This document shows positions 10,945-33,189 of a stretch of DNA of 64,000 nt, one piece after another. Source of the stretch: Zanthoxylum bungeanum. Its lineage: Eukaryota; Streptophyta; Magnoliopsida; Sapindales; Rutaceae. The notes beneath the pieces are model-generated. The model saw only the letters and a program-made list of their open reading frames with translations, did no database searches and was not told the DNA's origin. The stretch spans positions 310,001-374,000 of the forward strand of contig SKCR01033469.1 in NCBI GenBank assembly GCA_019454045.1, in the 5' to 3' direction. A program made the translations under genes and the position numbers. Every line of letters begins with the position of its first letter. Position 1 is the stretch's first letter.

Positions 10945-11690
10945 GTGAAGTTAATTGACCTTCTCCTGGTCCAAACGACATATAGACTCGGTTTGGTCCC
11001 TCTTCGATACCAACGAGTGTATATCTTCCTGGCCTCATCAAGCCCAGTCGACCGGGGACATCCCCCACGAACTCATATCGAGTCAACTTGTGGACATAGT
11101 TTACACATGTCGTATGACTTATATCTTCCTGGACTCATCAAGTCCACCCGACCGGGGACATCCCTCACGGACTCATATCGAGTCAAGTTGTAGACATGGA
11201 TTACACATGTCGTATGACTTATATCTTCCTGGACTCATCAAGTCCAGTCGACCGGGGACATCCCCCACGGACTCATGACGATTCAAGTTGTAGACATGGA
11301 TACACATGTCGTATGAATTATATCTTGAATCTTCATCTAGATCAGTCGACATGGGACATCCCCCATGGACTCATATCGAGTCAACTTGTAGACATGGTTT
11401 ACACATGTCGTATGAGTTATATCCTGAATCTTCATCTAGATCAGTCGATCGGGGACATCCCTTATGGACTCATATCGAGTCAACTTGTAGACATGATTTA
11501 CACATGTCGTATGAATTATATCCTGAATCTTCATCTAGATCAGTCGACCGGGGACATCCCCCATGGACTCATGTCTAATCAAGTTGTAGACATGGAATAC
11601 ACATGTCGTATGACCTATAACCTAACTTTCATCTGGTCCAATCGATTGGGCACTTCCCCAATGGATCTAATAGAGTCAAGTTCATAACTT
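10945..11690 (+). repeat. 99-100 bp tandem repeat array in element A
   Basis: The word ACACATGTCGTATGA recurs at 11103, 11203, 11302, 11401, 11500 and 11599, a period of 99-100 bp, with weaker units before (from about 10800) and after. Each unit also holds AGTCGACCGGGGACATCCC and ACTCATATCGAGTCAA. Units divide into two types: early ones with CTTCCTGGACTCATCAAGTC, later ones with CTTCATCTAGATCAGTC. Because 99 is a multiple of three, several frames stay open across the array; these are repeat translations rather than genes. Confidence 0.9.
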
Positions 11691-13979: not shown

Positions 13980-13984
13980 CCAAT

Positions 13985-16087
13985 TGATCGGTGCTTACAC
14001 ACATATGTATAACGCAAGCGCACGTATCGTTCAAGTAGTATAAAAAGTATCGATCCCACAAGGACTTAATACCTAATCTATTAATTTTATGAGGTCAAAT
14101 GATTACTAGTATCTAACAGGTTGATTGATTGATTTGAAATAATGATGATTTTGAATTTAAAAACAAGTAAATAAAATGGCACGAAAGTAGTTTTAAGAAA
14201 ATTCAATATTAGGAAACTATCTAGGGTTGTGAATCTTTCTAATATCTTTTAAAAGATGAAGTGGTTATTTCATGTTTGTGTAATAAATCGGTTTTCTAAC
14301 CTGGACCACTAAATTATACGAAAGCCTCTGTCGATGGTCAGACGCAAATACCCATTATAACCCAATTGAACCATATGTCTATGTCAACCAAATTACCTGG
14401 ATTCATTAAGTTTAAGTTCCAATTATGGCTACCCCCGCCCGACAGGTATATGTCTATCCTGTAAGGAAATCTATTAAAGGGTTATCTAACCTCAAGGAAG
14501 ATCGTGGGCTATTAAGTCTAAGGCTGAAACCTAAAATTCTTTTGTCAAGTTTATTTTAGATTTACCAGATCAATCTTATTAGTGGCTAATTAACAAGACG
14601 CATTAAGCTTAATACTTAATAAATAAACCTTTAAATTACCCAAACTATAAAATATCCCCTTATAAACCGGTGATATTAGAATTCATCACAACCCCAGATA
14701 ACTAACTTAGTTACAACACATAACTAGGGCTAGTAAAAAAGTTAAATAAAATAAAGAAATAAAGTAAAATACTGAAAATTAAATGCTGAAAAGTAAATGC
14801 TGAAAGTAAATTTCTGATAGTAAATTGCTGAAAAGTAAATGCTGAAAGTAAATTGCTGAAAAGTAAATACTGAAAGTAAATTGTTGAAAAGTAAATAAAG
14901 TAAAAGTACAATAAAAGAAAATGCTGAGGTAAAATGATCCACTTTTATTACTTCTATTTTAGATATCTCCCTTAATATAATATATTAACTTTGCATGATA
15001 ATTACCAACCAGCCATATAAGCGGTATCCAAATTAATTCAAATTAATAATTAATTACCAACCGACCAATCAGGCGGTATCCAGTTTAGTCAGGTTAAAAC
15101 CAATTTAAATAATTACCAACCGACCAATATGGCGGTATCCTCGTTAAGTCAGGTTTTAATTAGTTTATATATTATAATTAAGGGAGATTAATCTAAATAT
15201 TAGTAATAAAAGTTTTACCTTTTACCTCAGTAAAGGGAGTTACTTCCTCATTACTGAAAAGTAAAAACTGAAAATTAAAGAAAGAAAAGTACTGTGCGTA
15301 AAAGTAAATTGCGGAAAGTAAAAACTGAAAAGTAAAGAAAAGAAAGTGTTAAAGCGGAAATTAATTACTGAAAGCTGTAAATAAACAAACAAGATACAAT
15401 CTTCTTAGTATTCTTAAGGAATTCCTTAGAAGAAAGTATGAATTTACAAATGAAATGGTTTGGTATTTATAGGCAAAATTTTGCCTCAATCAAATCATCC
15501 ACCAAATCCATTATTAGTTGCTCCACTAATTGCTCCACCAAATCCATTATTAATTGCTCCACTAATTTCTTATCATTTTTTTGTGGTGATTTGATAATTT
15601 TTATTATTTATTTATTAATTTATTTTTTTTGCTTTGAAAATGATTGAAAATGACTTAAATAATTACACACAACACACTTCTAGATGTTTCATCAATTTCG
15701 GGCATGAAATCTTCAGAATTCGAAATTATTTTGTCTTTCAAAGTTGTATATCTTTGAGTCTTCTTTAATCTGAAACTTGAATCTGCTCAATCCGATATCA
15801 GAGTAAAACGTTATGCCCAAAATATGATAGATGCGCAAAACTGGAATTTCCAAAACTGTACTTCGTTAAAACGCCCTTTCAAGTTTCCAATCTCCACAAT
15901 AAATATGTCAAGTCCAATTTTTGCCCTTATTTGACCCACATTTCATCCTAAATGATTTCATTATGTCCCAATATTATTTTATCTGCAAAATAAACTAAAA
16001 CACATCAAAACATTCATCAAACCCGAGAAACTAAACAAAATATTAAGTAAAAGGGGCGGTGAATATTGATATATTTTCCGCTCATCA
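13985..16087 (-). repeat. Element B 3' LTR
   Basis: Aligns with 20975-23050 along its length. Bounded by TGATCGG on the left and CTCATCA on the right as read on the plus strand. It includes an AAAGTAAATGCTGA microsatellite-like array (14755-14900) and three copies of an ACCAACCGACCAAT..GGCGGTATCC unit (14996-15150). Confidence 0.88.
14996..15150. repeat. GCGGTATCC tandem unit in Athila LTR (about 60 bp, three copies)
   Basis: Three copies of ACCAACC(A/G)(A/G)CCA..(A/C)GGCGGTATCC spaced about 60 bp. The same array is in the other B LTR (21963-22110), in reverse orientation in D (26970-27125) and expanded in E (29090-29490). The motif is conserved where the surrounding LTR has diverged. Confidence 0.7.
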
Positions 16088-16134: not shown

Positions 16135-16365
16135 ATCTATGTAGCGAGTGTTGGGTCGGTGGCTCCCAAACCAGTTGGCTTTAGGGCATCAGGTGTTAAG
16201 ACACCCACACAAACTTAATTGCTCAGACTTCAGATATATATATTTTTGCAACATCCTTGATCCATGTAGCGAGCATTGGGCCAGTGACACCCAAACCAGT
16301 TGACTTGAGGGCACTAGGTGTTAAAACACCCTTACAGACTTAATAACTCGGATCTCAGACGTTTT
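16135..16365. repeat. Direct repeat, about 125 bp, two copies
   Basis: Units at about 16135 and 16260 share ATGTAGCGAG..TTGGG..GTG, CCCAAACCAGTTG and AGG(C)A(C/T)(C/T)AGGTGTTA. The copies differ at roughly one base in seven. They lie between the LOG-like ORF and the 3' LTR of element B and contain no frame of note. The rest of 16088-16776 is AT-rich, with an interrupted palindrome around 16540-16630. Confidence 0.7.
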
Positions 16366-16776
16366 TTTTTTTACTCCATCACTTTTTATAGATGCTTCCT
16401 CCAATTAAAGTAGAGCACTGAATATTTCAAACTTTTCAATTACAGCTCATGTTTGTATGTTACCATGTATGCTGATAATACCTGTCAACTGAGTGGAAAC
16501 TCCTTACTCAGCTATCTCTTACCATTTCACATTTTTAGTCAAAATAAAAACACAAAAACGCAAAATATTTTTGTAATTTTTTGAAAATTTTTCAATTTTT
16601 TTGTATTTTTCGAAAAATTTTGGACTAAAAATAAAAACAACACACAACTAATAACAAGATACTGATCAACTAATTCCCTCCCCCAAACCTAAATGAGACA
16701 TTGTCCCTAATGTCTTAAACAGTAGAAGAAGAGTTTAGAAGATAGTACCTGGTTAACTGAAATGCTACACGAAAAG

Positions 16777-17430
16777 TTATAGGTTAAGATCCAGATTAAT
16801 CCGACGCCTCTTACCACGATCGTCATCGGACCAATTTATCTTTGAAAGGATAGGGTCAATTTGTGGTTCATAGGCCAAGATTTGGTCAATTAGATCCGGA
16901 GCAGTTCTGGCAGTAAAGAGGAGTTCTTTCATAGGTTTTGTCACGAGCCCATTTCTTCGGGCATCATCAAGAAACACACAAAGAAAATCATAAAATCCTT
17001 CAACGTTGTACAGTCCAAGCGATTTCTGGTGTATGTTCAGGTTCGCCCAAGATAATACTGTAAAAATTTCCTCCAATGTACCCAAGCCACCTGGCAAAGC
17101 AATAAAAGCATCAGCACGGTTAATCATTTCTACCAGTCGTTCAGACATACCTGGCACGATCAGTTCCTCTCCGTTTGATGGTCCAATAAGATTTGCTTCT
17201 GCCAAGGGTTTTGAGATGATTCCCAAAACGTGACTGCCTCATTCCTGTACAGCATTTGAAACGATCCCCATTAGTCCAAGATTGCCTCCGCCATATACTA
17301 AGTGCATATTCCTTGCAGATAAGACTCGACCCATTTCATGTGCTGCCTCTACGTATTGTGGTTTAACTCCAACACTAGTATCGCAAAACATATATATGTT
17401 TTAAACTCGTCTTCTTGAAGTGGCTTCCAT
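16777..17430 (-). pseudogene. LOG-like cytokinin riboside 5'-monophosphate phosphoribohydrolase, captured in element B
   Basis: The frame from ATG at 17430 to TAA at 16779-16777 is 218 codons, the usual size of plant LOG proteins, with two in-frame stops (TAA 17403-17401, TGA 17241-17239). LOG enzymes release active cytokinin base from its riboside monophosphate, usually in cytosol and nucleus. Visible family marks are VYGGGNLGLMG in the N-terminal Rossmann part, SERLVEM, the catalytic PGGLGTLEE, then the helices around LLFTARTAPDLID. If translation began at the ATG at 17391, just before the first beta strand, only the TGA would interrupt. Plant LOG genes normally have several introns; none is seen, which points to capture from an mRNA. 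The tail is unusual: GKRRRINLDLNL joins a basic cluster to an LxLxL (EAR-like) motif. Family call is firm; activity is not shown. Confidence 0.85.
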
Positions 17431-17473
17431 GTTTTACTCTAGATGTCTTCAAAAGTGCAATGATGAGTTGCAT

Positions 17474-17578
17474 TTATAAAACCTGAAAAGGGTGAGTAAT
17501 AATAGCACAAGTATCTTCCAAAGGAAGATTAGTAGCAAAATAGTAAAATAAATCGTGATAGTCAAAAAGGTTTGGATC
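17474..17578 (-). other. Short open segment between two splice-acceptor-like sites
   Basis: Upstream of the LOG-like start, TTTTCTCCGACAG ends at 17579 and CACCCTTTTCAG ends at 17483. Between them is an uninterrupted 32-codon stretch (starting DPNLFDYHDLFYYF) that reaches a TAA two codons after the second site. It reads like coding sequence, but I do not recognise it. It could be an exon of a lost accessory gene or chance. The remainder of 17579-17678 is AT-rich and intron-like. Confidence 0.35.
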
Positions 17579-17678
17579 CTGTCGGAGAAAATAAAAGAAA
17601 ACAACAAAAAAATTACAATTATTAGGAAAAGACAAAGATATATAATATGTACAAGAAATATAGTGGCTTGAATGACGT

Positions 17679-18227
17679 CTATGCGTCAGGGACAAGCTTC
17701 CCATCCAATTTTCTTATAAATTGGCAAACAGGGTCTTTTTGAGTCAGATTCCCGATACTTAACTGTTGTTTTTCTTTTTGGAATTGTGTATGTAACACAC
17801 GAATTTCATGATACACATATCCACTGGGATGCGTCTCAAGAGTTTTAGATATATCATCCAAAGACTCCTTACTCAAGCCATCCCTAATGAAATTAATCTT
17901 ATCTTTGCAGTTATCAGACACCATTCCTAAAGAACGACAACGAGTATCATAAACTATACGAGCACATTTATAACAAACACACATTCTTTTGGCTCTTATC
18001 TTTTTAGCATAGGTGCTCCTTCTTAAACCAGACATATGTGAAATAAAAGAGTCAGAAGACTCACCTGCCAATCGGACCCGTGCTTCAATAATCCAATGAA
18101 TGTCAGTTGGAATACCTTTGATCATTAGTAGTCTCATCTATTCCAAGCGAACTTTGTAAACTTTCATCAGAGATTTTTGAGGGAGAGAAGGAAATTGCTT
18201 GTGAAGATTTGCAAGAGCTTCTTCCAT
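17679..18227 (-). pseudogene. Cysteine-rich basic ORF, resembling viral nucleic-acid-binding proteins; in element B
   Basis: The frame runs from ATG at 18227 to a stop at 17681-17679, 183 codons, with one in-frame TAG (18140-18138); the part after it, from ATG 18137, is open for 152 residues. Residues 38-58 of that part hold a basic stretch (GLRRSTYAKKIRAKRM) directly followed by CVCYKC, then cysteines at 67 and 77. A basic RSxYAxxxRA block followed by a CxxC zinc-binding motif and spaced cysteines is the signature I associate with the small 3'-terminal proteins of carlaviruses and allexiviruses, some of which suppress RNA silencing. The resemblance rests on that block only. The ATG lies 16 bases after a splice-acceptor-like TTTTTGCAG, at the place of an Athila env. 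Alternative: an unrelated retroelement zinc-finger protein. Confidence 0.45.
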
Positions 18228-18239
18228 CGTGAAATGACT

Positions 18240-18260
18240 TTGCCTGCAAAAATTAAACAC
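18240..18260 (-). promoter_or_regulatory. Splice-acceptor-like site before the accessory ORF
   Basis: On the minus strand GTTTAATTTTTGCAG ends at 18244, after a T-rich tract (18285-18245), 16 bases before the ATG of the cysteine-rich ORF. Athila env genes are thought to be expressed from spliced RNA, so an acceptor here fits, but splicing is inferred only. Confidence 0.45.
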
Positions 18261-18330: not shown

Positions 18331-18957
18331 TTAACGTCGATAGCTAGACGTGTCTTCTCGAACGTTAGGCTGGATCTGAAAGTGTGACACTTTCTTTTTG
18401 TCGCTCAAATGATTTTCCCAGTAGTGCTTGACACACTTATTTTTAACCTTGAATGTTTTGATGGAGTCGGGATCATGTATCTCAACGGCTCTGTCTGGTA
18501 AAACCTCGGTGATCACAAATGGACCTGACCACCGTGATTTTGGCTTCCATGGGAAAAATTTCACCCATGATTTGTTTAACAGTACCTTCTGCCCTGGTTC
18601 CAGTTGTATGCGCACTAACTTCTCATCATGTTTTTTCCTTGCCTTTTCTTTGTACAATTTGGCATCCTCAAAAGGCTGATTGTGAAGTTCCTCCAATTCG
18701 TTGAGTTGGTGGAACTGTTTCTCTTCTGTTGCTTGTAGTGCAAGAATTGGTTTTTTCAGTGCAAAAGACGATTTATCTTCAGGCTCCACAGACAATTGAC
18801 ATGTTTTAAGTATGTCAGTAGAACTTTGCATTGCATTGGAGTTCTGAATGGTACTGTGTATTACATCAAGTCTGAAACATTCCTCATTCTGTTCATTATC
18901 TGGGAAATTCATGGCCTTGAAAACATTGAATGTTACTTCTTGGTCCTGTACCCTCAT
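18331..18957 (-). CDS. Element B: post-protease spacer fused in frame to integrase C-terminal tail
   Basis: A continuous 208-codon frame. Residues 1-45 match the segment that follows the protease in element D (VQDQEVTFN.FKAM at 32445). From about residue 75 it is the end of Athila integrase: QLNELEEL, KLYKEKARKKHDEK, PGQKVLL and the GPY/F-type SRWSGPFVITEV. RT, RNase H and the integrase catalytic core are missing between the two, yet the join preserves the reading frame. After the stop comes a GGGAGGCAACCCATG word, typical of the end of Athila pol. It is separated by a frameshift from the protease frame upstream. No enzymatic activity is expected. Confidence 0.8.
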   Translation of the reverse strand: MRVQDQEVTFNVFKAMNFPDNEQNEECFRLDVIHSTIQNSNAMQSSTDILKTCQLSVEPEDKSSFALKKPILALQATEEKQFHQLNELEELHNQPFEDAKLYKEKARKKHDEKLVRIQLEPGQKVLLNKSWVKFFPWKPKSRWSGPFVITEVLPDRAVEIHDPDSIKTFKVKNKCVKHYWENHLSDKKKVSHFQIQPNVREDTSSYRR

Positions 18958-18959
18958 GG

Positions 18960-20842
18960 TTAATTCTCATTTCTGTACATCAATAATGGTTTGACTTGTA
19001 GCCAAGAATGGTCTCCCGAGGATGATCGGCACGTCTTCATCTTCCTCCATATCAAGGACAATAAAATCTGCTGGGAAAATAAATTTGTCAACCTTGACCA
19101 GCAATCTTCAACTACACCTCTCGGAAATACGAGCGTTCTATCAGAAAGTTGTAGAGAGACTGAGGTGGGCATTGTTTCTCCAATCTGTAATTTCCTGAAA
19201 ATAGAAAAAGGCATCAAATTAACACTCGCACCTAAATCACACAAAGCCTTACCAAAGTCATGTTCTCCTATGGTGCAAGGAACAATGAAACTGCCAGGAT
19301 CTTTCAATTTTGGAGGAAGTTTCCTCTGAATGGTAGCGCTGTATTCTTCTGATAATTCTACTGTCTCGTAATCTCCCAACCTCCGCTTTCGTGAAAGAAT
19401 GTCTTTCATGAATTTGGCATAGCTGGGCATTTGTTCCAACGCTTCTGCAAATGGAATGTTGATATGCAACTTTTTGAACACCTCCAGGAAACGAGCAAAC
19501 TGCTTGTCCAGTTTGTTTTTCTGAAGACGCTGAGGAAAATGTGGAGGTGGAGTGATCTGTTGCTTTGTTTCTTTTGGAACTTCCTCAGCAGTTGTTTTGG
19601 CTCCAACATCTTTGTTGATTTCAGTACCGCTTTTTAACATGATGGCATGACATTGCTCCTTCCCTCGGTTTCTTGGATTTGGTTCTGTGTTACTGGGAAG
19701 ATTTCCTGGTGGTCTGTAACTCTGAGCATTGGCCAGTTATCCAATTTGATTCTCCAGTGCTTTGATAGAAGCAGATTGACTTTGAATTAATGCCACTTCG
19801 GATTGAAACATAGCATCATATCTAGCTGCTTGAGAGTCGTGTTTTGCTTCTATCTTTTTCAAGTGGGTCAACACTTCTGCTATTCCTGGTTCATTTGCCT
19901 GCTCCTGGCCTTTTTTCTGCTGTTGGAATCCGGGTGGTGGGTTGTTCATTTGCCCTGAATTGTTGCTCCATGCGAAATTGGGATGATTCTTCCACCCTGG
20001 GTTGTAGGTGTTGGAATATAGATTGTCTCCAATTTCATAAATTCCAGCAATTTGTTGAATCAAGCTCCTTTCTGTTTCCCACAAGGAGTTGTTGTTGGCT
20101 ATTTCTTCAATTAAGTCCCAGGCTTGATCTTCTCATTTTGCCATTAAAGCTCCTCCAACAGCAGCATCAATTGTGGTTCTCATTATTCCAGAAAGTCCAT
20201 TGTAGAAGGTTTGGACTTGTAGCCACTTTGCAATTTCATGGTGAGGACATTTTCGAAGTAAATCCTTGAATCTTTCCCAAGCTTAGCAAAGATATTCTGA
20301 ATCTTGTTGCACGAATGATGTGATGTTATTCCTCAACTTTACAGTTCTGGTTGGTGGAAAGTACTTTGCAAGGAATTTGGTGGCTAGAGTTTTCCAAGTT
20401 GTGATGGAACCTGCTGGTAACGAATGTAGCCAAGCTTTAGCTCTGTCTTTCAAGGAATATGGAAAAACCCGCAGTCTCATTGCTTCTTCAGCTGCTCGGT
20501 TGTAATTGAAAGTACCGCAAACTTCCAGGAAGTTGCTGATATGGGTGTTAGGATCTTTAATTGCATTTCCCCCAAACTGTACTGACTGCTGAATCAGCTG
20601 GATGCATGTTTTGATGTCACACGCATTTACTGGTAAAAAAAGAAGTACAATACATGAATTAAGCCGTCGACCACCTGAATGGTTCTGTCTCGAATGGGTA
20701 TTGGTGGTGTAACTTCCAAAGTTTCAGGTTCCATGTTGACTAAAGCTTCTTGGCTTTCACGTCTTTCCCTTCTCAACTGTCTGATGGTTCTTTCAATTTA
20801 TGGGTCGAGTGGTCGGAGTTCAAAGCTTCTGGTTCGTCTCAT
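18960..20842 (-). pseudogene. Element B gag and protease (broken)
   Basis: The start ATG is at 20842 (MRRTRS-like, as in element D at 28161). The retrotransposon gag domain follows (20480-20150, with FPYSLKDRAKAWLHSLPAGS and KFLAKYFPPTRT), then a Q/P-rich linker (20084-19737) and the protease (frame 19640-18960, active-site DLGAS at residues 135-139 followed by VNLMPFS). Stops or frameshifts near 20282, 20140, 19737, 19640 and 19080 divide it into pieces. Gag would form the virus-like particle and the protease would process it; neither is intact here. The order gag-protease continues into the fused integrase-tail frame. Confidence 0.85.
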
Positions 20843-20949: not shown

Positions 20950-20974
20950 GTCCCTGACAACGGTGCCAAAAACT
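20950..20974 (-). other. Element B primer-binding site
   Basis: On the minus strand TTTTTGGCACCGTTGTCAGG follows the 5' LTR end. This is the Athila-type site, close to TGGCGCCGTTGCCGGGGA, usually assigned to tRNA-Asp. Confidence 0.8.
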
Positions 20975-23050
20975 TGACCGGTGCTTACACACACGCGTAT
21001 AACGTAAGCGCACGTATCGTTCAAGTAGTATAAAAAGTATCGATCCCACGAGGACTTAATACCTAATCTATTAATTTTATGAGGTCATATGATTACTAGT
21101 ATCTAACAGGTTGATTGATTGATTTGAAATGGTGATGATTTTGAATTTAAAAACAAGTAAATAAAATTGCATGAAAGTAGTTTTAAGAAAATTCAATATT
21201 AGGAAACTATCTAGGGTTGTGAATCTTTCAAATAACTTTTAAAAGATGAAGTGGTTATTTCATGTTTGTGTAATAAATCAGTTTACTAACCTGGAACACT
21301 AAATTATGCGAAAGCCTCTGTCGATGGTCAGACGCAAATACCCATTCTAACCCAATTGAACCATATGTCTATGTCAACCAAATTACCTGGATTCATTAAG
21401 TTTAAGTTCCAATTATGGCTACCCACGCTCGACAGGTATATGTCTATCCTGTAAGGAAATCTATTAAAGGGTTATCGATCCTCAAGGGAGATCGTGGGCT
21501 ATTAAGTCTAAGGCTGAAACCTAAAATTCTTTTGTCAAGTTTATTTTAGATTTACCAGATCAATCTTATTAGTGGCCAATTAACAAGACGCATTAAGCTT
21601 AAGACTTAATAAATAAACCTTTAAATTACCCAAACTATAAAATAACCCCTTATAAACCGGTGATATTAGAATTCATCACAACCCCAGATAACTAACTTAG
21701 TTACAACACATAACTAGGGCTAGTAAAAAACTTAAATAAAATAAAAGACATAAAGTAAAATACTGAAAATTAAATGCTGAAAAGTAAATGCTGAAAAGTA
21801 AATTTCTGAAAGTAAATTGCTGAAAAGTAAATGTTGAAAGTAAATTGCTGAAAAGTAAATAAAGTAAAAGTACAATAAAAGAAAATGCGGAGGTAAAAGG
21901 ATCCACTTTTATTACTTCTATTTTAGATATCTCACTTAATATAATATATTAACTTTGCATGATAATTACAACCAGCCATATAGGCGGTATCCAGATTAAG
22001 TCAAATTAATAATTAATTACCAACCGACCAATCATGCGGTATCCAGTTTAGTCAGGTTAAAACCAATTTAAATAATTACCAACCGACCAATATGGCGGTA
22101 TCCTCGTTAAGTCAGGTTTTTAACTAGTTTATATATTATAATTAAGGGATATTAATCTAAATATTAGTAATAAAAGTTTTACCTTTTACCCCAGTAAAGG
22201 GGAGTTACCTCCCCATTACTAAAAAGTAAAAACTGAAAATTAAAGAAAGAAAAGTACTGTGCGTAAAAGTAAATTGCGGAAAGTAAAAACTAAAAAGTAA
22301 AGAAAAGAAAGTGCGAAAGCGGAAATTAATTACTGAAAGCTGTAAATAAACAAACAAGATACAATCTTCTTAATATTCTTAAGGAATGCCTTAGAAGAAA
22401 GTATGAATTTACAAATGAAATGGCTTGGTATTTATAGGCAAAATTTTGCCTCCATCAAATCATCCACCGAATCCATTATTAGTTGCTCCACTAACTGCTC
22501 CACCAAATCCATTATTAATTGCTCCACTAATTTCTTATCATGTTTGGTGGTGATTTGATAATTTTTATTATTTATTTATTAATTTATTTTTTTGCTTTTA
22601 AAATGTTTGAAAATGACTTTAATAATTACACACAACACACTTTTGGATGGTTCATCAATTTAGGGCATGAAATATTCAGAATTCGAAATTATTTTGTCTT
22701 TCAAGGTTGTAGAAATTTGAGTCTGCTTTAATCTGGAACTTGAATCCTCTCAATCCGATATCGGAGTAAAAAGTTATGCCCAAAATACGACATATGCGCA
22801 AAATTGGAATTTCCAAGACTACACTTCGTTAAAACGCCCTTTCAAGTTTCCAATCTCCACAATTAATATGTCAAGTCCAATTTTTGCCCTTATTTGTCCC
22901 AAATTTCGTCCTAAATGATTTCATTTTGTCCCAATATTATTTTTTCTGTAAAATAAACTAAAACACATCAAAACGTTCATCAAACCCGAGGAACTAAACA
23001 AAATATTAAGTAAAAGGGGCGGTAAATATTGATATATTTTCCGCTCATCA
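20975..23050 (-). repeat. Element B 5' LTR
   Basis: Matches 13985-16087 closely (GACCGGTGCTTACAC at its plus-strand left edge, CCGCTCATCA at its right edge). The target duplication CCAAT follows at 23051. An AAGTAAATTGCTGA microsatellite-like array lies at 21760-21870 and GCGGTATCC units at 21963-22110. Confidence 0.88.
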
Positions 23051-23055
23051 CCAAT

Positions 23056-25816: not shown

Positions 25817-26006
25817 TAGGGATGGCAATGGGCCGGGCTCGAGCCGGGCTTTGATAAACCCGGCCCGAGCCTGGCAAAATAAATTTAGGCCCGGGCCCGA
25901 TTTTTTTATAATAAAAAATTATAAATATAAAAAATTTATTATATAAAAATTTGTATTTTATAAAAAAAAATATTTAATTATTTATTTTAAGCCCGGGCCG
26001 GGCCGG
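25817..26006. mobile_element. hAT-like transposon fragment
   Basis: TAGGGATGGCAATGGG at 25817 matches the terminal repeat often seen on plant hAT elements (T/CAGGGATGGCAA). It is followed by GGGCCGGGCTCGAGCCGGGC, an AT-only core (25905-25988) and GCCCGGGCCGGGCC, so GC-rich arms enclose an AT-rich centre. The other end is not in the window because element D starts at 26007. The preceding eight bases GCCCTGAG would be the target duplication. Confidence 0.5.
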
Positions 26007-28027
26007 TGATGAGTGGTAAATGTATCACTATTTCCCACTCCTTTGACCTAATATTTTGTATAGTTTCTTGAGTTTTGTGAAAATTTTGATATGTTTTGTG
26101 TTATTTTGTAGATGAATAAAGTTTCAGGACTCTCTAGAATCAAATCAGTGAAAAACAGATAAAAGGGCAAAAATATCATTTGGCGCGTCGTGACGCGCAG
26201 CCTACGTGGCGACCACTAATGTGCGTCGGGAGCCTGCTAAAATGCATCGAGACACGTGTCAAAATTTAAGAAGTTTGATCTTGCTAACGTGCACCGATCT
26301 TGCTAACGTGCGCCTGCCACGTGTCATCATCACATCCTGCCGACAATCGCCATCGCCATGTGTCATCCATGTGTCAGCCACGTGGCATCCATATCACTCA
26401 CTTACCAAGTCAGCGTGCCATGTGTCAGCCACATCATCATCAGCCAATCATCTCGTGACACATGTCGAAATCACACAGTGCCGACAATAAACATCACCAT
26501 GTGTCGCCACGTCATCGCCATGTAAGCATAATTATTGGGTTAATCATCCAAATTTTCCATGTGTCAGCATTTTATTGGGCCTGTGCCGCGTCAGCAGATA
26601 AGAGATCAAAACAGCCAATGAGCGTTTGCCATGTCATTGCGTTTCAACGCGCAAAAGTTGTCGCGTCGCGACGCATGTCACATATCGACCCTTATAAATT
26701 CAGCTCGAAATTTCAATTTTAGATGTACCTTCCCTCTGAATTCTCTGATATTAACAAGGAGTTTGTATCTAGTTTATTTTAATTTCAGTTTTGTAATTAA
26801 TTTTATTTACTTTTTATAATAGTAATTTACTTTCTTTACTTTTTCAATTTTTACTATTCAGCAATGAGGAGGTAACTTCCTCCTGCTAGGGTGAAAGGTA
26901 AATCTTTTATTATTGCTATTTAGATTAATCTCCCTTAATTATTATATAATAACTACTTAAAACATGACTTAATGAGGATACCGCTATATTGGCCGGTTGG
27001 TAATTGATATTAAATTGGTGTTTTAACCTGACTTAGCAAGTATACCGCCTGGTTGGTCGGTTGGTAATTAATTATTAATTTGACTTAATCAGGTTACCGC
27101 CTATATGGCTGGTTGGTAATATCACACAAGTTAATATATTATATTAAGGGAGATATCCAAAATAGTAGTAATAAAAGTGGATCCTTTAACCCTAGCATTT
27201 TCTTTTATTGTACTTTTTCCTTTTTAATTTCTAGCATTTACTTTTCATCATTTTACTTCATGTCTTATATTTTTAAGCTTTTACTAGTTGTAAATATGTG
27301 TCGTAGCTAAGCCCGTTATCTGGGGTTGTGATGAAATCTAATATCACCGGTTTATAAGGGGTTATTTTAGAGTTTGGGTAATATAAATGTTTACTTATTA
27401 AGTCTTAAGCTTAATGCTTTTTATTAACTGGCCACTAATAAGATTGATCGGGTAAACTTAAAATAAACTTGACGAATGAATTTTAGGTTTAAGACCATAG
27501 ACTTAATAGCCCACGATCTTCTTTGACGATAAATAACCCTTTAATAGATTTCCTTACAAGATAGACATATACATGTCGGGCAAGGGTAACCTTAATTGGA
27601 ACTTAGTCTTAATGAATTCAGGTAATTTGATTAACATAGACATATGATTTAATTAGGTTACACTGGGTATTTGCATCCGACCATCGACAGAGACTTTTGC
27701 AGAATTTCGTATTCCAGGTTAGTAAACCAATATATTACACAAACATGAAATAATCACTTCATATTTAAAAAGATATTGGAAGAAATCACAACCCTAAATA
27801 GTTTTATAAATTTGAATTTTCCTTAACCTACTTTCGTGTCATTTTATTTACTTGTTTTAATTCTTATAGTCGCCACCCAATCAAACAATCAATCCATTAG
27901 ATACTTGTAAATATTTAACTTCAAAAATTGATAATAAAAGGTTTTAAGTCCTCGTGGGATCGATACTTTTATACTACTTGAACGATACATGCGCTTGCGT
28001 TATACTCGTGTGATTACGCATCGGTCA
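26007..28027 (+). repeat. Element D 5' LTR (Athila-like)
   Basis: Begins TGATGAGTGG and ends ATCGGTCA, directly before the PBS. It is a relative of the B and E LTRs in the same family. 26180-26680 is rich in CACGTG and GTCGCGACGC words, 26970-27125 holds the GCGGTATCC units, and 27300-27720 is conserved with B. The preceding GCCGG (26002-26006) would be the target duplication; the other copy is outside the window. Confidence 0.82.
26180..26680. promoter_or_regulatory. G-box and GTCGCGACGC cluster in element D LTR
   Basis: CACGTG cores occur near 26254, 26317 and 26379 with several one-base variants (CATGTGTC), together with GCGTCG.GACGC palindromes at 26184 and 26661. CACGTG is the plant G-box/ABRE core bound by bZIP and bHLH factors. 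A role as U3 enhancer is inference. Confidence 0.45.
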
Positions 28028-28028
28028 A

Positions 28029-28056
28029 GTTTTTTGCGCCATTTCCGGGGACTTAG
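28029..28056 (+). other. Element D primer-binding site
   Basis: GTTTTTTGCGCCATTTCCGG directly follows the LTR. It is a mutated form of the Athila tRNA-Asp-type site also seen in element B. Confidence 0.75.
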
Positions 28057-28277
28057 TTATCTTTCACTATTAGTTTTAGGGTTAGATACGTTACTTGTGT
28101 CTAATTTTTTTTTCTACTTATTATTTCTGTTTTCGTGTGTTTCAGGTTCTCAGACACTATATGAGACGAACCAGAAGCTTTGAACTCTGACCGCTTGACC
28201 CAGAAATTGAAAGAACCATAAAACAGTTGAGAAGGGAATGGCGAGAAGGCCAAGAAGCAAGTGTCAACATGGAACCT

Positions 28278-30502
28278 TGACCGGCGTGAACACACACGTA
28301 TAACGCAAGCGCACGTATCGTTCAAGTAATATAATAATATCGATCCCACGAGGACTTAATTCCTATTGTTGTTATTATTTATTGATACTATTTATTTACA
28401 GGTATCTAATTATAGGGAGAATGGAATTGATTGCTTTTGGTTGGTTGAATGTGGATTTGCTAATTAAAATAAAAACAGACTCAAAAGAAAATACTAAGGA
28501 AAATAAAAGAAAAGACTCAAAGATCTAGGGTCGTGACTCCACACAATATTATTATAAAGATGAATTGATTTTCTTATATATGTGTAATAAATTAGTTTGC
28601 TAACCTGGAACACGAAGATATGCAAAAGCCTCTGTCGATGGTCAGATGCAAATACCCAGTATAACCCAATTGAACCATATGTCTATGTCAACAAAATTAC
28701 CTGGATTCATTAAGATTAAGTTCCAATTATGGCAACACCCGCCCGACAGGTATATGTCTATCCTGTAAGGAAATCTATTAAAGGGTTATCTATCCTCAAG
28801 GTAGATAGTGGGCTATTGAATCTAAGGCTGAAACTTAAAATCCCTATGTCTAGTTCATTTTAAGTTTACCACATCAATCTTATTGGTGATCAGACAACAA
28901 GAAGCATTAAGCTTAAGACTCAATAAACAAACTAAAGATTTACCCAATAAATAATTAAATCAATTATTAAGCCTAGTAATATTGTGTTTCATCACTTCCC
29001 TAGAATAAAAATAAAATGCTGGGGGTTAGGGGATCCACTTTTAGAAATCTCAAATTATTATAATATGGAAATTGCCAGTATTATCCAATTAAGTTGAACC
29101 AGCCATAAAGGAGGTGTTATTATTTATCCATAAACCAGCCATATAGACGGTAATTATCTGTCACCTAAAGACCAGCCATATAGGCGGTGTCACATTATGT
29201 TATATAATTAAAACCAGCCATTAAGGCGGAATCAACTTTTAATTCATATTATTAAATTACAATTTCCATATTATAATTTAAGTGAGATTAATCTACCTTT
29301 ACTATTTCTAATTTAGAAATCTCCCTTATTATAATATATAAATCTGTGTGATATTTACCAACCAGCCATATAGGCGGTATCCTGATTAAGTCAAATTAAT
29401 AATTAATTACCAACCGACCAACCAGGCGGTATCCTCATTAAGTCAGGTTAAAACCAGTTTAAAAATAATTACCAACCGACCAATATAGCGGTATCCTTAT
29501 TAAGTCAGGTTTTAAATAATTTTTATATTATAATTAAGGGAGATTAATCTAAATTATAAAAGTAAAAAGTTTCACATTTACCCCAGCAGTAAATTAACTA
29601 CTGAACATAAAAGAACAAAAAGAAAAGAAAATAAATTTTATTACAAAAAGTAAAAGTGCATAATTAAAAATACTAAAAGTAAAAATGCTTAATTTAAATT
29701 ACAAAAACTTAAACACACAAGATGCAATCCTTAAAGTCCTTACAAAACTCAAGGAAGGCATGATTTGAATTCTGACATCGAGCTGAATTTATAGGCGTCA
29801 ATAGGGGTCGGGCGTCGCGACGCTCAAGGTTTTTCGCGTCGCGATGCGCCACGTGTCGCTTTTCTATTCGTCGACTTCAGATTCTTTATCTGACACGTGG
29901 AAATCCGGATAAGATGATAAGGTGACACGTGGCAAGGCGACTGGCAACTCAATGATTGTGCTGACGTGGCGATGATGTGGCGAAAGTGATTGTCAGCACC
30001 TTAGGATTGACCCACGTGGCACTTTATGATTGGCTGATGATGACGTGGCGGTGGCATGGCTTGTTGACTCGGTCAACTGATGATGTGGACGCTAACGTGG
30101 AGTGACACGTGGCGATGGCGACTGTCGGCACCGTAGGATGATGACACATGGCACGACACACGTTAGCAGATCGGTTGTGATGGTGACACGTGTCACGGCG
30201 CACGTTAGCAAAGTCAAACTTCTCAAATTCTGACTTGTGGACCTGGCGTATATTAGCAAGTCTTGGTGCATGTTAGGCGTCGCGACGCGCAAGGCTTTCC
30301 GCGTTACGATGCGAACAAATTACAAAAATGCCATTTTCATCATTTTTCACTGTTTTGGCTCCAAATCACCTCCAGAATGTCCTGAAACTTTATTTATCTA
30401 CAAAATAATACAAAACACATCAAAATATTCACAAAACTCAAGAAACTATACAAAATATTAGGTTAATTGAGTGGGAAATAGTGATACATTTACCACTCAT
30501 CA
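28278..30502 (-). mobile_element. Solo LTR E (Athila-like) with TSD AACCT
   Basis: Bounded by TGACCGGCG and ACTCATCA and flanked by a perfect target duplication AACCT (28273-28277 and 30503-30507). The gag frame of element D resumes after it. No interior is present, so this is an LTR-LTR recombination product. It is in the opposite orientation to D. The GCGGTATCC/GGCGG unit is expanded to about seven copies (29090-29490). Confidence 0.9.
29810..30300. promoter_or_regulatory. G-box array in solo LTR E
   Basis: Six CACGTG cores occur within about 350 bases (near 29851, 29896, 29924, 30013, 30105, 30187), including the perfect palindrome GTGACACGTGTCAC at 30183-30196. GCGTCGCGA(C/T)GC words flank the array at 29813, 29837 and 30284. 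The array lies in the U3-like half of the LTR as read on the minus strand. Regulatory function is inference. Confidence 0.5.
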
Positions 30503-33189
30503 AACCTGAACCTTTAGAAGTTGCTCCACCAATTCCCATTCGAGACAGAACCATTCCGGTGGTTGACGGCTTCATTTCCTGTATTGTACTTCCTCCTTTA
30601 CCAGCAAATGCGTGTGACATCAAAACATGCATTCAGATGATTCAGCAGTCAGTTCAGTTTGGGAGGAATGCAACTGAAGATCCTAATGCCCACATCATCA
30701 ACTTCCTGGAAGTTTACGACACTGTTAATTACAATCGAGGAGCTGAAGAAGCAATGAGACTGTGGGTTTTCCCATATTCCTTGAAAGACAAAGCTAAAGC
30801 TTGGCTACATTCACTACCAGTAGGTTCCATTACAAATTGGAACACTCTAGCCACTAAATTCCTTGCAAAGTATTTTCCACCAGCCAGAACAACAAAACTG
30901 AGGAATGACATCACATCATTTATACAACATGACTCGGAAACTCTCTACGAAGCTTGGGAAAGGTACAAAGATTTGCTCCGGAAATGTCCTCTCCATGAGA
31001 TTCCAAAATGGCTTCAAGTCCAAACTTTCTATAATGGACTTTCTGGACTGATGGGAACCACAATTGATGCTGCTGCTGGAGGAGCTTTAATGGCAAAAGT
31101 AGAAGATCAAGCCTAGGACTTAATCGAAGAAATGGCTAACAACAATTCCTTGTGGCCAATAGAAAGGAGCATGATTCAAAGAATTGCAGGAATTTATGAA
31201 GTTGGAGCCAACACTACAGTAAATGCCAAGCTGGACCAGATATGCAAATTCTTGGAAACTCTTAGCATGCAAAGAAATATTGGATCCATAAGTTCACCTT
31301 ATGGAGGAGGACCAGAGCCAAACCAACAAGAAGAGACTGTGAATTATGTCAACAATTTCAATAGTCAGGGGAACAATCCATAATCCAACACCTACAACCC
31401 ACGGTGGATAAATCATCTTAATTTTTCATGGAGCAACAACTCAGGGCAAAAGAACAATCCACCACTTGGATTCCAACACCAAAATAAAGGCCAAGAGCAT
31501 GAAAAAGATCCAGAAATGAAAGAATGGATTACAGAGATGTTCAAAAAGCAACAAGTAGCATACGATGCTATATTTCAAAGCCAATCTGCCTCTAATAAAG
31601 CACTATAGAATCAAATTGGACAAATGGCCAATGCTCAGAGTTACAGACCGCCAGGAAATCTTCCCAGCAATAGAGAACCAAATCCAAGGAACCGAAGGAA
31701 GGAACAATGTCAAGCCATTACCTTGAAAAGCGGTACTGAAATCAACAAAGATGTTGGAATCAAGGCAACTATTGAAGAAATTCCAAAAGATGCAATCCCA
31801 CAGATGGAGGAAATAGAAGCAAAGGGAAAAGATCAAATCACTCCACCTCCACCTTTTCCACAGCGTCTTCAGAAAAAAAAACTGGATAAGTAGTTTGCTC
31901 GATTCTTAGAGGTGTTCAAAAAGCTGCATATCAACATTCCATTCGCAGAAGCCTTGGAAGAAATGCCCAGCTATGTCAAATTCATGAAATACATTCTTTC
32001 ACGAAAACAGAGATTATGAGATTATGAGATAGTAGCATTGACGGAAGAATGTAGCGCCATCATTCAGAGGAAACTTCCCCCAAAGTTGAAAGATCTTGGT
32101 AGTTTCACTGTCCCATGAACCATTGGAGAACATTATATCGGTAAGGCTTTATGTGATTTAGGTGCCAGTGTTAATTTGATGCCTTTTTCTATTTGCAGGA
32201 AACTGCAAATTGGAGAAGCAATGCCTACCTCAGTCTCTCTGCAACTTGCTGATCGGACACTTGCATTTCCGAGAGGAGTGGTTGAAGATGTGCTGGTCAA
32301 AGTCGACAAACTTATTCTCCCAGTAGATTTCATTATCCTTGACATGGAAGAAGACAAAGATGTACCTATCATCCTTGGAAGACCATTCTTGGCTACATGT
32401 CGAACTGTTATTGATGTACAAAAAATAGAACTAACCATGAAAGTTCAGGACCAAGAAGTTACCTTTAATATTTTCAAAGCCATGAAATTCCCAAGTGATG
32501 AAAAAGAGGAAGAATGTTTCAGAGTTGATGTTGTTGATAGTATCATCCAGGATACTGAGCCACCTCCCACAGATAAACTTGAAGCTTGCATCACTAACAT
32601 GACTGACAGCGAGCTAGATGCTGAAATCCTGGAATGTATCAACTATCTTGACAAACCATTTCGTTTCAAATCGACACCACCAGTTGAAAGTCTGGAACTA
32701 TCAAAGAAGGAGAAAATCAAGCCCTCAATTGAAGAACCACCACAGTTGGAGCTGAAGCTACTGCCGAGCCATCTCATGTATGCATTCCTTGGAAACTCTT
32801 CTGAATTACCTGTGATTATTTCTTCTTCGCTAATATTGGAGCATGAAGAAAAGTTGTTGAGAGTGTTAAGAGAACAAAAGAAAGCCATTGGCTGGACTAT
32901 AGCTGACATTCGAGTCATTAGTCCATCATTTTGCATGCACAAGATTCTGATGAACGATGAGTACAAACCCACAGTGGAGCATCAACGAAGACTAAATCTA
33001 ATCATGAAGGAGGTCGTGAAGAAAGAAATTATCAAATGGTTGGATGCTGGCATCATTTACCCCATCTCAGACAGCACTTGGGTGAGTCCTATACAGTATG
33101 TACTGAAGAAATGAGGAATAACTGTAGTCATAAATGAAAAGAACGAGCTGATTCCAACAAGAACTGTGACTGGATGGAGAGTATGCATG

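Follow-up and report, generated by a model that had tools for sequence, protein, structure and literature searches.

Steinbauerova et al. reportedly described, in 2011, two Athila-like elements with similarity to LOGL4. That Gypsy elements of Citrus and Populus can contain a LOG (YgdH) domain is already in print, with Steinbauerova 2011 cited for it (PMC9289625, excerpt); both genera are also among the LOG relatives listed below, and it is the LOG-family domain in which those Gypsy/Athila-type elements, with their LOG/YgdH extra ORF, resemble the element described here. A nucleic-acid-binding protein (NABP) partner, a rebuilt pocket, and an LxLxL tail are not among the features described for them in that excerpt (PMC9289625), and we treat the present element as a further family. 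More generally, the env-like extra ORFs of Athila and SIRE elements (eORF-3′F) share with the genes studied here their place as sense-strand ORFs between pol and the 3′ LTR, possibly spliced, but are highly heterogeneous and have few recognisable domains (PMC7264820, PMC6317226, excerpts). The survey of such ORFs used a cut-off of 250 codons, so an NABP of 182 aa may have been missed in surveys of this kind (PMC6317226, excerpt).

Both genes also have known counterparts outside retroelements. The cysteine-rich proteins of flexiviruses (the CRP/NABP of carla-, viti-, allexi-, and mandariviruses) share a basic stretch and zinc cysteines with the retroelement NABP (PF05515 and PF01623); the latter differs in being retrotransposon-borne and in the conservation of N- and C-terminal parts that the Pfam match does not cover. 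Plant LOG cytokinin riboside 5′-monophosphate phosphoribohydrolases (2a33, 1ydh) have the sequence family, the PGGxGTxxE motif, Arg99, and Glu122 in common with the element LOGs, but the latter have H97, K100, and E125 mostly replaced, carry a basic and LxLxL tail, and occur in clusters of many sequences; the copy analysed here is, in addition, intronless. A betaflexivirus replicase fragment has been described in cucumber (PMC3136472, excerpt). In a literature search that most subscription papers lay outside, we found no report of NABP or carlavirus proteins in retrotransposons, or of an NABP and LOG pair. LOG in such elements is already known; the NABP gene and the NABP-LOG pair are the parts for which no report was found.

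Structure and decay of an Athila-type element

The window, the whole stretch of 64,000 nucleotides of Zanthoxylum bungeanum DNA that was analysed, contains an LTR retrotransposon with all of its features on the minus strand (Table 1). The first-pass annotation had placed paired LTRs and a CCAAT target site duplication (TSD), the arrangement by which an LTR retrotransposon is recognised, and the LTR alignment, the TG..CA ends (read in the minus sense), and the CCAAT flanking the outer ends of both LTRs all agree with it. The two LTRs share 93.97% identity over 2106 aligned columns (K2P 0.048), equivalent to an age of about 1.8–3.4 My under two assumed plant rates. The primer-binding-site-like stretch is presumably of the tRNA-Asp type. 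As the same annotation had it, the NABP-like and LOG-like ORFs both read in the sense of the element; they follow the integrase tail and precede the 3′ LTR, in the env position.

Table 1. Features of the element in the window (TSD, target site duplication; coordinates are positions in the window).
Feature	Position	Strand	Evidence or remark
Whole element	23050 to 13985	-	all features on the minus strand
5′ LTR (element sense)	20975..23050	-	LTR alignment, TG..CA ends
3′ LTR (element sense)	13985..16087	-	LTR alignment, TG..CA ends
TSD CCAAT, left copy	13980..13984	.	sequence
TSD CCAAT, right copy	23051..23055	.	sequence
Primer-binding-site-like TGGCACCGTTGTCAGGGA	20951..20968	-	6 nt inside the 5′ LTR; sequence
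gag remains	19737..20723	-	broken into 20283-20723 and 19737-20132; PF03732 E 3e-12 on 20283-20723
Protease region	18960..19736	-	CDLGASVNLMP, by eye; 86% inverted match of 19104-19566 to sibling 31827-32289
Integrase C-terminal tail	18385..18807	-	39.7% to L001 integrase-frame residues 348-488, E 1.6e-26
Possible 3′ splice-site AG (TTTAATTTTTGCAG)	18244..18245	-	16 nt upstream of NABP ATG; sequence only
NABP-like (flexivirus cysteine-rich protein) ORF	17679..18227	-	182 codons and stop; internal stop at codon 30 (18138-18140)
NABP-LOG linker	17431..17678	-	248 nt; ends match P0001 tail, P0136 and P0242 heads
Possible 3′ splice-site AG (CCCTTTTCAG)	17483..17484	-	ahead of LOG; sequence
LOG-like ORF, intronless	16777..17430	-	217 codons and stop; frame 17430-16780, internal stops at codons 10 (17401-17403) and 64 (17239-17241)
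LOG C-terminal tail GKRRRINLDLNL	within 16777..17430	-	sequence
Motif ACATTAGGGACAATG...TTTGGGGG	16680..16713	-	common to L001 at 2575

A second, related element is located at 26000-33114 (plus strand), with gag at 30409-31116 (PF03732) and a protease region at 32119-33114; it shows 81–87% to the gag and protease blocks of the NABP/LOG element, and tblastn for NABP and LOG gave no match in it. Pfam protease models had zero matches in the window copy itself, and the ORF of this sibling at 32119-33114 matched PF08284 at E 0.004, under the cut-off. Similarity between the two elements stops at 18844, and the NABP/LOG element contains neither RT, RNase H, nor the integrase core. Because RT, RNase H, and most of the integrase are missing, the window copy is non-autonomous and internally deleted. 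Other repeats in the window include a non-coding 125-bp unit (1.8 copies, 16135-16360) between the conserved motif and the 3′ LTR; a tandem array of ∼99 bp at 11035-11619 (5.9 copies, 87%), read through by a plus-strand ORF of 189 aa (11118-11687); and, at 33389-63905, stacked elements that look like Copia by eye, with LTR-like blocks in four to six copies and several integrase- or RT-like frames.

We call the element Athila-type, a name that rests on its layout and on the choice of the first-pass annotation. Ty3/Gypsy elements are defined by an integrase downstream of RT/RNase H, and the window copy lacks RT and RNase H; Athila elements are OTA elements without an added RNase H (PMC6317226, excerpt). 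In L001, a contig carrying a related element (see below), a stretch resembling the end of RNase H (by eye) precedes the integrase frame (rve, H2C2), and Pfam RNase H models had no match at E <= 0.01 in the integrase frame (104-1591), in a scan that leaves out the 204 nt before the NABP and on a contig that begins without the upstream part.

Each of the two accessory ORFs contains only one or two internal stops, as had been noticed at first pass: one in the NABP and two in the LOG. In addition, the zinc motif of the window NABP reads CYKCARIVYDTRC, with the third cysteine changed to tyrosine, so that three cysteines are left and the site is one ligand short. From the LTR divergence, 1.24 stops would be expected in the 399 codons, against three seen (P = 0.13; the expectation is scaled from the L001 NABP ORF), and therefore post-insertion decay suffices: the stops are compatible with neutral mutation since insertion, and with the earlier suggestion that the decay may be recent compared with capture. 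The window copy is a dead fossil, and therefore functional conclusions are drawn from its relatives.

The NABP-like gene and its plant family

The likeness of the cysteine-rich ORF to plant-virus nucleic-acid-binding proteins, proposed from the letters at first pass, is borne out by profile searches: its stop-free piece (17679-18137) matches PF05515 with 24.0 bits (cut-off 23), and scores 20.4 bits against PF01623 (cut-off 20.9). The piece shares 84% identity with one database protein (E 2.5e-75), so this similarity is far above chance. A protein search with the same piece returned 241 relatives at E <= 10, and among the best 120 of these the motif C-x2-C-x4-C-x2-4-C is kept in 109 and the C-terminal block VCQ(F/L).RKLD in 98, while 84 are at least 175 aa long (182 aa being typical). 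The named relatives, among the matches listed, come from Xanthoceras, Populus, Acer, Rhamnella, and Orobanche; and one cluster represents 566 sequences. In an alignment of 73 members (57–91% to P0002), Carla_C4 matches 71 and Viral_NABP 68 (E <= 0.01); the Pfam match in P0002 stops near residue 120, and the C-terminal block lies beyond it. The NABP-like ORFs are a large conserved plant family.

A scan of genome contigs for the NABP yielded L001, a contig of 3330 bp filed under a GTDB bacterial MAG (Candidatus Nomurabacteria contig DAIEQH010000041.1); it is evidently plant retroelement DNA, and its bacterial filing is probably contamination. L001 contains a 496-aa frame with integrase domains, open from just past a stop in the RNase H-like stretch, and an intact 182-aa NABP (34.2 bits to PF05515) that starts 204 nt behind the integrase frame. 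About 228 nt after the NABP stop there is a motif, ACATTGAGGACAATG..TTGGGGG, of the same kind as the window motif (ACATTAGGGACAATG..TTTGGGGG), which comes after the last accessory ORF both in the window and on L001. Similarly, in a Rhamnella gene model (P0086), an integrase tail, at 70% to L001 over 111 aa, runs into an NABP. The NABP thus sits behind the integrase in three cases: L001, Rhamnella P0086, and the window.

The first-pass annotation had asked for dN/dS across copies, and we computed it for the NABP alone, on the single pair of window and L001. Over 152 codons (NG86), dN is 0.228 and dS is 0.819, giving an omega of 0.28 (bootstrap 0.17–0.44, n = 300); LWL85 on the same pair gives a higher ratio, 0.47. 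The NABP is therefore under purifying selection in this one pair.

We also searched for viral and structural relatives. The predicted NABP models are weak (pLDDT 52.6 and 66.5), and a viral fold search with the NABP model returned 41 matches, none at E <= 0.001. Among the best 20 of these 41, 16 are named as nucleic-acid- or RNA-binding proteins or RNA silencing suppressors; the remaining four are two small proteins (of Cherry mottle leaf virus and Gymnadenia betaflexivirus 1), p23 of Citrus tristeza virus, and one nameless protein. We take the viruses behind the 16 named matches to be flexiviruses. A PDB fold search gave three matches, all above E 5, and a PDB sequence search gave zero. No relative was found in viral contigs scanned with the NABP piece, P0130, and A1; a scan of the viral contigs with A2 gave 23 weak LOG-like matches (27–59% over the best segment), which we judged unrelated.

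The Pfam matches, together with the weak fold matches to flexivirus CRPs, could also be explained if the NABP were no element gene at all but an endogenised piece of a flexivirus inserted into the element. Such a fragment would not be expected to belong to a coherent plant family, to share with it a C-terminal block beyond the Pfam match, or to recur behind the integrase in three cases, and we rejected this reading, which we consider very unlikely. As an element gene, the NABP has relatives with described activities: silencing suppression is described for viral CRPs, one of which, CVB p12, is reported to be a weak suppressor and also a transcription factor that induces hyperplasia (PMC12172455, excerpt). 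It is homology to these viral CRPs that suggests a silencing-suppressor role for the retroelement NABP. This kinship offers a concrete hypothesis for an env-position ORF, namely counter-silencing or transcription control, and gives a family in which it can be tested.

The LOG-like gene and its altered pocket

The LOG-like frame had been called almost full-length, and indeed its 217 codons are collinear with P0123 from end to end, at 84% identity (E 1e-124). PF03641 matches the stop-free piece (16777-17238; E 1.2e-29), which has PGGxGTxxE and the catalytic Arg/Glu of the LOG family, in a frame broken by the two stops. From the NABP stop to the conserved motif there are 966 nt in the window vs ∼228 nt on L001, the extra length being the 654-nt intronless LOG frame; and tblastn for LOG against L001 gave no match. 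A sub-lineage of these elements has thus gained LOG as an extra gene, and the two genes are separable, with L001 having NABP without LOG. The pairing seen at first pass is thus real in the window, but not obligatory.

The window LOG has 725 relatives at E <= 1e-5 and P0136 has 5435 at E <= 1e-10 (the best 120 were examined in each case); among the matches listed are Populus ‘LOGL10’, Xanthoceras, Citrus x changshan-huyou, and Reevesia. Rows are labelled as element LOGs by similarity, cluster size, and position in the tree, and not from each having been seen inside an element. The phylogeny that had been proposed as a check was built from 44 rows: the 30 element-type LOGs group together (100/96) to the exclusion of seven host and seven bacterial LOGs, and two Xanthoceras rows branch off first inside the group in the tree as drawn. 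In this sample, with its thin host representation (seven rows) and two long branches (P0226 and P0229), the element LOGs are one deep clade distinct from the sampled host LOGs. Some Xanthoceras gene models (P0247, P0248, P0249, and P0252) contain two tandem LOG domains, in 290–381 aa, either through fusion in gene prediction or through a real duplication.

Residues were scored in 128 element-type LOGs, with the numbering and residue roles of CgLOG (PMC4979012), after exclusion of the four tandem gene models and of rows shorter than 160 aa. The catalytic residues R99 and E122 are kept in 115 and 121 of the 128, and T119 and E121 in 123 and 125, respectively; glutamine takes the place of R99 in 12. 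H97, on the other hand, is kept in only 22 of the 128, K100 in four, and E125 in four, vs the host (6/6), bacterial (12/12), and Xanthoceras (4/4) LOG rows, all of which keep the three residues together. The window LOG has M, S, L, T, and W at M96, H97, K100, E125, and W129, and so lacks three of the five residues of the cytokinin prenyl site. In CgLOG, H97, K100, and E125 are placed at the prenyl or adenine site, and changing AMP-binding and catalytic residues to alanine, S19A excepted, caused almost complete loss of activity (PMC4979012, excerpt). These patterns suggest that the element LOGs have mostly kept the machinery for nucleotide 5′-phosphate hydrolysis, and not the part that recognises the prenyl group of cytokinin. 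Not all are catalytic: P0308, a Citrus x changshan-huyou cluster of 79 sequences, shows PGDLATFEA where the catalytic motif would be, and is probably no hydrolase because of this change.

The first-pass annotation had named the product a cytokinin-activating enzyme. As a true cytokinin activator, the element LOG would raise local cytokinin and make host cells divide, to the benefit of the element; most members retain Arg99, Glu122, and the nucleotide motif, PF03641 matches, and, given the hyperplasia reported for CVB p12 (PMC12172455, excerpt), both genes could push proliferation. Yet three residues that are invariant in six host and 12 bacterial LOGs, and that the CgLOG paper puts at the prenyl or adenine site (PMC4979012, excerpt), have given way to others in the window LOG and in the majority of the 128. 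Cytokinin activation by the element LOGs appears doubtful because prenyl-pocket residues are lost in most of them, and we consider this reading unlikely.

The tail of the element LOGs is also distinctive. Among the 105 element LOG rows that reach 200 aa, 86 have LxLxL within the last 10 residues, as compared with 3 of 2107 other 10-residue windows of the same proteins, and in all 86 a basic patch lies directly ahead of it. LxLxL is absent from the Xanthoceras (0/8), host (0/4), and bacterial (0/3) LOG rows, the Xanthoceras group being basal. The LxLxL may be an EAR motif of the TOPLESS-recruiting type, and the basic patch ahead of it may be a nuclear signal.

Linkage of the two genes and a proposed accessory module

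The two ends of the linker between the ORFs match peptides of relatives. At the NABP end it matches the C-terminal tail of P0001; at the LOG end it matches P0136 in the N-terminal head and also, less strongly and in a different frame, the head of P0242 (0/1000 shuffles as good in each case); three other heads or tails (P0141, P0005, and P0220) gave no match to it. We also compared the sizes of the source contigs of 109 of 120 NABP and 163 of 198 LOG rows, excluding chromosome-size, size-less, and host or bacterial LOG rows. Two NABP/LOG pairs come from contigs of equal size: P0045 and P0287 (both 8723 bp), and P0035 and P0273 (both 4511 bp). For sizes above 4 kb, a cut picked after the matches were known, ∼0.03 such matches would be expected against these two, and ∼0.28 for sizes above 2 kb; nine more exact matches at 654–1033 bp were disregarded, since short sizes coincide by chance. 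The size-matched pairs (NABP/LOG) are at 62/49% and 66/51% to the window, and at 75/64% to one another. These observations are indirect, and they suggest NABP-LOG linkage in other elements.

The window copy is broken in both ORFs, has no RT and little integrase, and carries an intronless LOG, as would a single copy that had once acquired the transcript of a host LOG along with a virus cDNA, the two now decaying as passengers. One-off transduction does not, however, predict relatives of both ORFs with many members across several plant genera, an intact NABP in the corresponding position of L001, an NABP dN/dS of 0.28, or linker peptides shared with relatives. In addition, with both frames unconstrained for half of the NABP dS, one would expect ∼21 stops (again scaled from the L001 NABP ORF), against three seen (P 1e-6). 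We rejected one-off capture, which is very unlikely on these grounds.

We consider it probable, instead, that the window element is a dead Athila-type Ty3 copy from a lineage with a long-lived accessory module in the env position, made up of an NABP and, in a sub-lineage, a LOG, whose products would be helpers acting in trans. This reading draws direct support from the position, orientation, and homology of the genes, the family-wide conservation of the NABP and the purifying selection on it in one pair, the LOG clade in our sample, the changes in pocket and tail, and the decay of the copy. Its first gene would be a flexivirus-type, four-cysteine, basic NABP/CRP, of a family also present in an element without LOG. 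The second would be a LOG, confined to the sub-lineage and placed between the NABP and the conserved ACATT..GGACAATG..TTTGGGGG motif, that arose from a host LOG cDNA, mostly kept the Arg/Glu pair and nucleotide site, had its prenyl pocket altered, and gained the basic and LxLxL tail. Acceptor-like AGs, judged from the letters of the window, precede both ORFs, and spliced sub-genomic RNAs of the element may be the source of both proteins, which would then act in trans inside the host cell. The NABP might then serve as a nuclear RNA- or DNA-binding silencing suppressor or transcription regulator, and the LOG-derived protein as an N-glycosidase of nucleotide 5′-phosphates (or as a ligand binder) whose base preference is altered and which may also recruit co-repressors; jointly they could make the cell permissive for expression or replication of the element.

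The accessory proteins might also be pictured as structural or replication helpers, and not as anti-host factors: the NABP is a small, basic zinc protein, nucleocapsid-like in this respect and a possible chaperone, and a nucleotide-5′-phosphate hydrolase could act on nucleotide pools during reverse transcription. The homology of the NABP to viral CRPs reported as suppressors or regulators argues against this, as does the LOG tail, which resembles a co-repressor motif and not a virion signal; we regard the helper reading as unlikely. Only tentatively, and as a reading less likely than not, do we extend the long-lived module to an ancient two-gene, trans-acting one, in which a flexivirus-type zinc-finger suppressor or regulator, exchanged between plant RNA viruses and Athila-type elements, would be joined by a neofunctionalised, non-cytokinin LOG (directed to the nucleus as a nucleotide hydrolase or as a ligand sponge, the ligands perhaps being nucleotide immune signals, and recruiting co-repressors by its tail).

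As to the new kind of accessory module suggested at first pass, the pair is real, goes beyond a one-off, and has relatives clustered in other plants, but its LOG half had already been published in Gypsy elements (PMC9289625, excerpt). Conserved relatives of both genes in many plants suggest a long-lived toolkit over a one-off accident, and a LOG partner with its catalytic pair mostly intact and its base pocket altered would be a case of re-use of a hormone enzyme by a mobile element. There is also a caution for annotation: Populus ‘LOGL10’ (P0164 in the tree) falls within the element-type LOG clade, and Populus proteins of this name may be element proteins, not cytokinin genes.
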